Position numbers and translations under genes: made by a program. 64,000 nt of DNA, taken from assembly GCA_030425045.1 (NCBI GenBank), contig JAUHVL010000002.1, positions 62,001 to 126,000 on the forward strand, written 5' to 3'. Under the pieces are notes generated by a model that ran no database searches, had not been told where the DNA came from, and saw nothing but the letters and a program-made list of their open reading frames with translations. This stretch comes from a bacterium (GTDB taxonomy: Bacteria; Bdellovibrionota; Bacteriovoracia; Bacteriovoracales; Bacteriovoracaceae). This document shows, in pieces, positions 10,189-37,915 of this stretch (position 1 is the stretch's first letter; each line of letters begins with the position of its first letter).

Positions 10189-10204
10189 TCTAAAGCCTTC
10201 TAAA

Positions 10205-10620
10205 AAATATAAGCTGATATACTTTAATGGGGTTATGTGTTTCATTTTTGAAATTAAAACTGTTTTACATAATCCTATAAAAAACATCCCTGTATTTAGA
10301 CATTTAAAATGCTCCCGTCGTGGTCGCACCCACTTCGTGGGCAAGTTTTAAATATCCCTTGTTTTAAATTAGAAGATGACCAATACTTGCCCGAAGGGTC
10401 GGGGCAGGATGACCCGATATTGGTTATCACAAAACATGGAAGTTTTTAATTTACTGTAAGCGATTGGAAATTTATAGATGCTACCAATTTTGTTGAGAAC
10501 TTTTCTCCTACTAGAGGAATTAGTTTTTTAAAAGCATCTAACTATCTGATTTTATTATAAAGCCCACCATAAATATTTAAGGTAAGTACTTAAATTCACA
10601 TCACTTTATACCGATAGGAT
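10205..10620 (+). ncRNA. Structured intergenic element, copy 1 (putative non-coding RNA or repeat)
   Basis: This 445-bp gene-free stretch is homologous along nearly its whole length to 37559-37915. The best-conserved part (about 10280-10450) folds into three hairpins. SL1 is ATTTAAAA (10302-10309) with TTTTAAAT (10346-10353), extended below by G-C and A-T pairs. SL2 is an 11-bp stem, GATGACCAATA (10375-10385) with TATTGGTTATC (10418-10428), enclosing GGGTC/GACCC. SL3 is AAAAC-ATGGAA-GTTTT (10431-10446). This copy has an extra CCCAC-TTC-GTGGG hairpin inside SL1. There is no credible ORF. It may be a leader of the ABC operon, an independent RNA or a mobile non-coding repeat. Confidence 0.6.
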
Positions 10621-36520: not shown

Positions 36521-37549
36521 ATGGTAACAAAGCTCATGAGATTAACGTTCTTTACACTCATCTTTCTTACTTTCTTCTCTGCCCATAGTGCATTAGGACC
36601 GCTCGTTCCCGTATCAGAAATTCCTGAAAGTGTTTGTAAAATTGATTTTATGCGAAGTGATCACTCAACATATCATTGCTCAGGAATCTTACTCGACCAA
36701 GTCCATGTAAAAACAGCTGCCCACTGCCTCCTTTCGGATATCAAAAAGATTGAAGTTCAGTGTGGGAACCAATCCTCTCTCGTAACTGAAAAGATCGCTT
36801 CTTCAGACTTCTCGTTTGAAGATATTAAAAGCGATATCAATGCCAGACGTTTTGATCATGCTATTCTCCTGCTCGATCAAAAAATTGATATTCCAAGTCT
36901 CCCTTTTATTACCGATAAAGACGAAATTTCTGAGGTCATTAAAGAAAGTGATGAATGCGCATTTTTTGGTGTTGGTCTTAATCCGTGGTTGAATGGAACG
37001 GGTCATATTCATGGAGTTAAAGCTAAAGCAAAAAAAATTTCTTTTGATCGAGAGACCTTGATACTCAATGCTCCCTATCAGGCGGTTAGTATGATTGGAG
37101 ATTCCGGTGCTTCTTTTCTTTGTCGAAAACAGGGCTTCTCTTGGAAAAATATCGGAACGGTCTCTGCCCATGGTTGGGACAATGAAACGATCATTGCCCC
37201 CAATAATTATGCTCCCTTAATTGAAACGTCACCTGACTATGTAACCGTTAGTGAGAAGAAAACTATAGACTCTCCTAATATTAAGCTCAATTTAAAGTAT
37301 TGGGTTAAGCCATTTTCAACGTATAAATATAAAGAAGAAGTATATAATACAGTTGATAAAGTTTTAGTTAAGTTTATTCCTAGGCGTATTTTAGGAAATA
37401 AAGTCTTAGGGCAACTTATTTTAGAGAGCTCATCTCAATACTACTTGTGCTTTGATCAAAACCAATGTTTTACGGGAACCTTAGAAGACGTTGAGCTGGA
37501 TAAATCATCATTATCATTAACAAAACAGACTCCCTCAGAGTTTAGGTAA
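36521..37549 (+). CDS. Secreted trypsin-like serine protease (S1 family)
   Basis: The 342-residue protein has a signal peptide (about 22 residues, ATG at 36521 or 36536). Its trypsin-like domain has His in VKTAAHCLL, Asp in FDHAILLLDQKI and Ser in MIGDSGASFLC. Paired cysteines occur around each motif. A C-terminal region of about 90 residues beyond the domain is unknown. It should act in the periplasm or outside the cell. The second structured element begins about 10 bp after its stop. Confidence 0.87.
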   Translation: MVTKLMRLTFFTLIFLTFFSAHSALGPLVPVSEIPESVCKIDFMRSDHSTYHCSGILLDQVHVKTAAHCLLSDIKKIEVQCGNQSSLVTEKIASSDFSFEDIKSDINARRFDHAILLLDQKIDIPSLPFITDKDEISEVIKESDECAFFGVGLNPWLNGTGHIHGVKAKAKKISFDRETLILNAPYQAVSMIGDSGASFLCRKQGFSWKNIGTVSAHGWDNETIIAPNNYAPLIETSPDYVTVSEKKTIDSPNIKLNLKYWVKPFSTYKYKEEVYNTVDKVLVKFIPRRILGNKVLGQLILESSSQYYLCFDQNQCFTGTLEDVELDKSSLSLTKQTPSEFR

Positions 37550-37558
37550 ATCTTTTAA

Positions 37559-37915
37559 ACTGATGTAGTTAGATGGATATGTTTCAATTTTAAAATTTAA
37601 ACTATTTTAGATAACCCAATAAAAACATCCCTGTTTTTAGACGTTTAAAATGCTCCCTTCGTGGTCAAGTTTTAAACATCCATAGTTTTTAATTAGGAGA
37701 TGACCAATACTTGCCCGAAGGGTCGGGGCAGGATGACCCGATATTGGTTATCGCAAAACATGGAAGTTTTAATTTATATTTTGTAAGTATTTGGAACTTT
37801 ATAAATACTACAACTTTACATTGATAGCCTATCTCCAATTAAAGGCATCAGTTTATAAATCTTTTCATAAGCATTGAATATTTAAACTTATAACGATACA
37901 TAGGATCAAATCACT
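37559..37915 (+). ncRNA. Structured intergenic element, copy 2
   Basis: Between 37550 and 37928 there is no gene. The sequence is homologous to 10205-10620. SL1 is GTTTAAAA (37643-37650) with TTTTAAAC (37670-37677), where the closing pair is G-C instead of A-T in copy 1: a compensatory change. SL2 stem GATGACCAATA (37699-37709) with TATTGGTTATC (37742-37752) is identical, as is SL3 (37755-37770). SL1 loop is shorter, lacking the CCCAC/GTGGG hairpin. It lies between unrelated genes, in the same orientation as copy 1. Confidence 0.6.

Follow-up and report, generated by a model that had tools for sequence, protein, structure and literature searches.

Correia/NEMIS and RUP-type MITEs are small, non-coding elements that carry terminal inverted repeats (TIRs), generate a target duplication, occur in many intergenic copies and give rise to structured transcripts (PMC2229807), while another member of this group, MITEAba12, has been linked with 9-bp target sites (PMC6382973). 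The repeat described here shares with these elements its smallness, its non-coding character, its TIRs, its target duplication, its many intergenic copies and, when transcribed, a predicted RNA structure. However, it differs from MITEs in general because its core appears to be composed of two strand-specific three-way-junction RNAs that are more constrained than the TIRs, and because it combines CsrA-type loops with insertion at stop codons.

Other families of structured repeats offer likenesses in particular respects. The CIR elements of Caulobacter and Brucella consist of two long RNA arms joined by a linker and are exclusively intergenic (PMC2229807), but their loops hold a GANTC methylation site and they have no clear TIRs, whereas the loops of the present repeat read C[ANGGAN]G and its ends are those of a typical transposon. 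Similarly, REP/BIME sequences form inverted pairs of structured units that are common near gene ends, where they have been proposed to affect message stability and termination (PMC3733652, PMC2817692). REPs, in contrast, are units of 20-40 bp moved by RAYT transposases, unlike the 73-77-nt units, 21-bp TIRs and 9-bp duplication found here, and membership in REP/BIME was rejected on account of the long terminal repeats and the 9-bp duplication.

Among regulatory RNAs, the CsrB/RsmZ type resembles the repeat in its hairpins with CAGGAUG or ANGGAN loops: CsrB repeats read CAGGA(U/A/C)G, RsmE binds an ANGGAN loop, and the SELEX consensus of CsrA is RUACARGGAUGU, in which AC pairs with GU to close a loop of six bases (PMC7652899). 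CsrB/RsmZ are dedicated sRNAs, whereas the present sites are spread over about 57 dispersed mobile copies, with one or two clear sites per strand in each copy. The TAACTGA repeats of Beggiatoaceae, judged by their authors to be unlikely CsrA sites (PMC4679880), were set aside as relatives, since they resemble the terminal repeat by a short string alone.

A MITE-like transposon with two copies in the window

The window is a stretch of 64,000 nucleotides (C59:62001-126000) from a genome of 3.97 Mb in 91 contigs, all of which was searched. A sequence-only reading had noticed in it two related non-coding stretches whose cores are near-identical and whose flanks have diverged; the two are oriented alike, and each directly follows a plus-strand stop. 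This observation holds, and the duplication is far above chance: the whole-genome BLAST that the reading had proposed, made with copy 1, returned more than 40 copies, the best of the others with E = 1.8e-100. The core of about 170 bp had been placed correctly for copy 1 (10280-10446). The outer limits, in contrast, needed revision according to the TIR and arm matches, from 10205-10620 to 10210-10527 for copy 1 and from 37559-37915 to 37556-37855 for copy 2, and the distance to the next start, given as 10-20 bp, measures 107 bp for copy 1 and 73 bp for copy 2. The parts of both copies are the following.

10201 to 10209, no strand: left target-site duplication of copy 1, TAAAAAATA, eroded, with 3 mismatches to the right one
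10210 to 10527, plus strand: copy 1 of the mobile element, 318 bp from TIR to TIR (TIR and arm matches)
10210 to 10230, plus strand: left TIR of copy 1, TAAGCTGATATACTTTAATGG (3 mismatches to consensus)
10280 to 10446, plus strand: conserved core of copy 1 (96% identity to the core consensus)
10280 to 10356, minus strand: left half-unit of copy 1, a three-way junction plus hairpin AAATACAGGGATGTTTTT with GGA in its loop (R2 99.6 bits, wobble asymmetry)
10375 to 10446, plus strand: right half-unit of copy 1, a three-way junction with loop CAGGATG, plus hairpin AAAACATGGAAGTTTT (R1 96.3 bits)
10431 to 10446, plus strand: hairpin C[AUGGAA]G of copy 1, a candidate CsrA site
10507 to 10527, minus strand: right TIR of copy 1, CCTACTAGAGGAATTAGTTTT on the plus strand (6 mismatches to consensus)
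10528 to 10536, no strand: right target-site duplication of copy 1, TTAAAAGCA, eroded
37547 to 37555, no strand: left target-site duplication of copy 2, TAAATCTTT, whose first three bases are the upstream stop codon
37556 to 37855, plus strand: copy 2 of the mobile element, 300 bp (TIR and arm matches)
37621 to 37770, plus strand: core of copy 2, its left half shortened by an internal deletion of about 17 bp
37621 to 37680, minus strand: left half-unit of copy 2, inner hairpin deleted and GGA hairpin kept (R2 54.2 bits)
37699 to 37770, plus strand: right half-unit of copy 2, intact (R1 97.2 bits)
37856 to 37864, no strand: right target-site duplication of copy 2, TAAATCTTT, perfect

With a length of about 318 bp, TIRs and 9-bp target duplications, the repeat is a MITE-like, non-autonomous DNA transposon. 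Its TIRs, TAAACTGAT...ATCAGTTTA (21-24 bp), are found genome-wide and form inverted repeats, TAAACTGATgtacTTAAATGG...CCAATTAAAGGGATCAGTTTA, at the element ends; the family consensus of 324 bp, including the flanking AT, is arranged as left arm, 168-bp core and right arm. Identity between the flanking direct repeats is 0.81 at length 9, versus 0.27-0.42 at the other lengths tested. These 9-bp duplications are perfect in 11/28 copies and have at most one mismatch in 16/28, a level reached by just 8 of the 756 mismatched left/right pairings that served as a control. The targets share the consensus T[AG]A-nnn-T[TC]A (TRAnnnTYA); in copy 2, the stop TAA of the trypsin-like gene (37547-37549) is part of the target duplication.

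A covariance model built from right halves alone found 57 of them (78-103 bits), and copy numbers are lower bounds, as the assembly breaks within the element at many contig ends. Such ends were seen in contigs C21, C34, C38, C52, C55, C64, C65, C66, C69, C70, C71 (both ends), C73, C76, C86 and C89; the ends of C65 and C66 have the target duplication TAAATCTCT in common, so these two contigs probably adjoin. The copies fall into subfamilies designated class A, class B and class C, the last with 10 cores. At C79:34836-35329, a younger class-A copy with a perfect duplication, TATTTCTTA, is inserted just past the core of an old class-B copy, and at C35:42183-42626 two copies lie close together. 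The view that "core-only" copies represent an independent nested element was rejected, given that in most of them the arms are still present in eroded form.

To move the element, a transposase would have to be supplied in trans. A search of the genome with the TIR pattern found no autonomous relative with the same ends and returned, besides the element ends, a few scattered weak matches; one solitary match, at C27:7923, falls within an open reading frame. The autonomous partner may have been lost, may have diverged or may be absent from the draft assembly. Plasmid, phage and IMG/VR searches gave no match to the element, and a scan of contigs with one 19-mer gave two single matches, in Acidovorax and Novosphingobium, which we treated as chance. 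In Rfam, no relevant family reached the gathering score in the window, and CsrB, CsrC and RsmX/Y/Z were absent among the matches of copy 1 to E 10. Neither window copy showed a promoter-like sequence, a point against the CsrA-based explanation proposed below.

Each half of the core folds as a strand-specific RNA

The sequence-only reading had left a choice between an RNA family and a mobile non-coding element. The evidence points to both at once, as the TIRs and target duplications enclose a core that behaves as covarying, strand-specific RNA; very probably, each half of the core is such an RNA, with one half per strand. The core is made of two inverted half-units, each a three-way junction followed by an A/U-stemmed hairpin, and the RNA of each half-unit lies on the strand reading outward to its own terminal repeat. 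The junction comprises an 11-bp outer stem, a conserved ACUUGCCC-type segment that bears a CCC-GAA-GGG or CCCAC-GAA-GUGGG hairpin, and a second hairpin, which has a GGA loop in the right half. The hairpin after the junction is, in each half, AAAAC-ANGGAN-GUUUU. The whole element aligns with its own reverse complement (61% over 244 bp, E = 2e-15), and the right-half model also matches 50 left halves on the opposite strand (37-59 bits); judged from its sequence, the core is an old inverted duplication.

Covariation was assessed over all subfamilies. In the right half, 95.5% of cells are paired and 17 are doubly changed, and for the left half, taken as its minus-strand sequence, the figures are 98.8% and 30, compared with 32-51% paired in slid controls. 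For instance, a left-half stem of the form UUUAAAA/UUUUAAA is changed to one like CUCAGAA/UUCUGAG. Another covariation test gave 9 pairs with double changes versus 0-3 in slid controls. The wobble pairs assign each half to a strand: among wobble-compatible cells, G-U falls on the minus strand in 57 and on the plus strand in 1 for the left half, and on the plus strand in 64 and on the minus strand in 0 for the right half. Counted as distinct pairs, the minus:plus ratio is 7:1 in the left half, end hairpin included, and 0:7 in the right half (Fisher about 0.001, computed by hand). This asymmetry is the decisive sign that selection acts on RNA, since DNA structure cannot produce it.

Applied to the whole core, RNAalifold yielded a mixed fold with long-range pairs and little covariation, because the halves of both strands were then folded as one RNA; splitting the halves and taking the left one from the minus strand resolved this. 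For each half alone, the predicted fold is the one described here or close to it. If the whole core is transcribed as one RNA, folding predicts that the two end hairpins pair with one another; keeping one of them local then carries a penalty of about 7-8 kcal/mol, compared with only about 0.4-1.1 kcal/mol for the outer junction stems (medians). This predicted pairing could be a switch, or it could be a sign that the half-transcripts alone function.

Divergence among copies follows the RNA

Nucleotide diversity within class A is 0.032 at paired sites and 0.088 in loops, rises to 0.189 in the 18-nt linker that separates the halves and 0.17-0.20 in the arms, and is highest, at 0.26, in the terminal repeats. 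Nearest-neighbor copies differ by 5.2% in the core and by 18% in the arms. The divergence of the two halves was independent of which neighbor is likely transcribed, which counts against the CsrA-based explanation, although the numbers are small.

Two explanations that dispense with a function of the RNA for the cell bear on this pattern. Gene conversion could have homogenized the cores, in which case their conservation would not come from function; near-identical cores beside strongly diverged arms are what it would leave (C61/C62, for example, differ at 0/168 core and 27/149 arm positions). Block conversion is nevertheless difficult to reconcile with a linker that lies within the core and diverges like the arms while the adjoining stems do not, and conversion yields no compensatory double changes, which makes this account highly improbable. 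The second explanation is a purely selfish MITE whose core structure serves transposition, as DNA or as RNA, with selection on source copies alone. The element is plainly mobile and its subfamilies A, B and C resemble successive bursts, as expected from such a parasite; however, the terminal repeats that transposition needs are the least conserved part (0.26 vs 0.03 in stems), which argues against selection for mobility alone, the strand-specific wobbles rule out DNA-level structure, and half-units lacking paired terminal repeats occur in two other genera. We consider this explanation improbable, if less so than gene conversion. The pattern of divergence indicates that selection acts on the RNA rather than on transposition.

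The conserved loops resemble CsrA sites

The loops of the end hairpins read C[ANGGAN]G, like the recognition hairpin of CsrA/RsmE. The motif CANGGANG, or its form with a 5-nt loop (CAGGANG), is present in 41/41 left (minus-strand) and 40/41 right (plus-strand) hairpins, and the N positions of the loop are the variable ones. As in CsrA/RsmA sites, the GGA sits in the loop of a short hairpin, here in the context (A/U)CANGGANG(U/A). GGA is also kept in 40/41 right junction loops, whereas the junction loop of the minus strand (ANNAN) has no kept GGA, so that the minus-strand half has one clear site, not two. The pattern AAAACANGGANGTTTT, through which the class C subfamily came to light, has 104 matches in the genome, 0 in the reversed control and 0-2 per relative, and GGA hairpins number 86 in 6.9 kb of cores versus 3 in 309 kb of flanking DNA of the same genome. 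Window positions 62382-62397 also match the GGA hairpin pattern; the sequence there is coding-like and the match looks like chance.

The genome has one csrA, located between flgL and fliW (flgL - csrA - fliW, C34:110520-113678). This gene order is that of bacteria in which FliW antagonizes CsrA. The gene is general in the family, being above the cut-off in 20/22 relatives; in relative G017 it was seen as a contig-end fragment only. Taken with the loops, this suggests that CsrA is probably the partner of the loop hairpins. The pairing of the two end hairpins predicted for a full-core transcript would mask their GGA loops, unless a half alone is transcribed, folding is co-transcriptional or CsrA opens the hairpins. 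That this pairing is itself what keeps the GGA was rejected, as the N positions pair inconsistently (21 and 10 of 48, against 16.8 and 11.7 when shuffled).

Insertions lie at the ends of genes

With genes called by longest-ORF heuristics, a gene 3' end lies within 20 bp of the target center in 20/25 insertions whose empty sites were reconstructed, and two gene 3' ends are nearby in 8/25; for random intergenic positions of the window, the proportions are 14.5% and 0.04%. Matches to the target consensus are no nearer to gene ends (14% of the intergenic ones). Placement at gene ends may reflect the choice of target or else the removal of harmful insertions. Convergent genes are the commonest context, flanking 19/38 of the copies with both neighbors called. 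The shared orientation of the window copies, although real, is thus a coincidence of two, and the "leader" reading offered for them finds no support in copies placed at the 3' ends of genes and, for the most part, between convergent ones. Convergent pairs in the window are very tight, with a median spacing of -4 from heuristic gene calls, which may explain why stop-codon targets suit both neighbors.

This placement is also what would be expected if the RNAs were bidirectional 3'-end stabilizers or terminators between convergent genes that work without CsrA, as proposed for REP/BIME, in which case the GGA loops would be a by-product or would bind another protein. The strand-specific RNA structure agrees with such a role, as does the presence of one terminator-like stem per window copy versus 0.3-0.4 in shuffles. 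Plain stabilizers or terminators, however, need no invariant loop, and CANGGANG is kept while the N positions vary freely; moreover, A/U-stemmed end hairpins make poor barriers. We therefore regard this explanation as unlikely, albeit the most plausible of the alternatives to CsrA binding.

Relatives and a possible origin

BLAST of the element in 38 relatives gave no match. The covariance-model search suggested by the sequence-only reading showed stems kept in two other genera: in 77 other genomes, the right-half model found two credible homologs, one per genome. Of the outcomes that the reading had named as refuting it, a lack of further copies and a lack of conserved stems in relatives are both contradicted. 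In the homolog of G017 (genus g18; E = 1.4e-6), most letters of the outer stem are changed and all pairs are standard; ACUUGCCCGAAGGGU is unchanged, and GGA is retained in both loops. This half-unit (C27 of G017, L198 2374-2444) lies 7 bp past the stop of an IS110-family transposase gene and antisense to it. The homolog of G022 (E = 2.3e-4) is a single half-unit followed at the proper side by the same terminal repeat, AAACTGATCTACTTTAATGG; located on C88 (L199 42-185) and without a second half, it is a possible monomeric ancestor or a truncated copy. On these comparisons, the multicopy element may be an inverted dimer of a simpler unit, formed by an RNA half-unit and a terminal repeat.

Proposed mode of action and significance

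The explanation that best accounts for the observations, and that we hold to be probable, is a MITE-like transposon with paired GGA hairpins that bind CsrA. After insertion between gene ends, whichever neighbor is transcribed would receive one sense half-unit in its 3' UTR, and in a message from either side the sense half-unit would be distal to the antisense one. A CsrA dimer would bridge the two GGA hairpins of the plus strand, about 30 nt apart, and the bound protein would act in cis on message stability, decay or termination, while the copies together would titrate CsrA. Binding of CsrA may also be coupled to the opening of the long-range pairing between end hairpins. The further step, that insertion at stop codons adds CsrA-binding modules to 3' ends on both strands and has built a mobile sponge or 3'-UTR regulon kept by selection, is a more tentative proposal, for which we see somewhat less than an even chance.

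In eukaryotes, transposons are thought to spread regulatory RNA sites. To our knowledge, clear bacterial cases are few, and none is known to us in which a mobile element carries CsrA-type sites to the 3' ends of genes on both strands. Here, the element, its stop-codon target rule, a strand-specific fold and a plausible protein partner can all be read from sequence, and selection on the RNA appears to outlast selection on the transposon ends, which makes the co-option of a mobile element as regulatory RNA directly testable. If this explanation is true, a genomic parasite may have spread regulatory RNA switches through a bacterium and would have rewired a post-transcriptional network in which csrA is paired with fliW.
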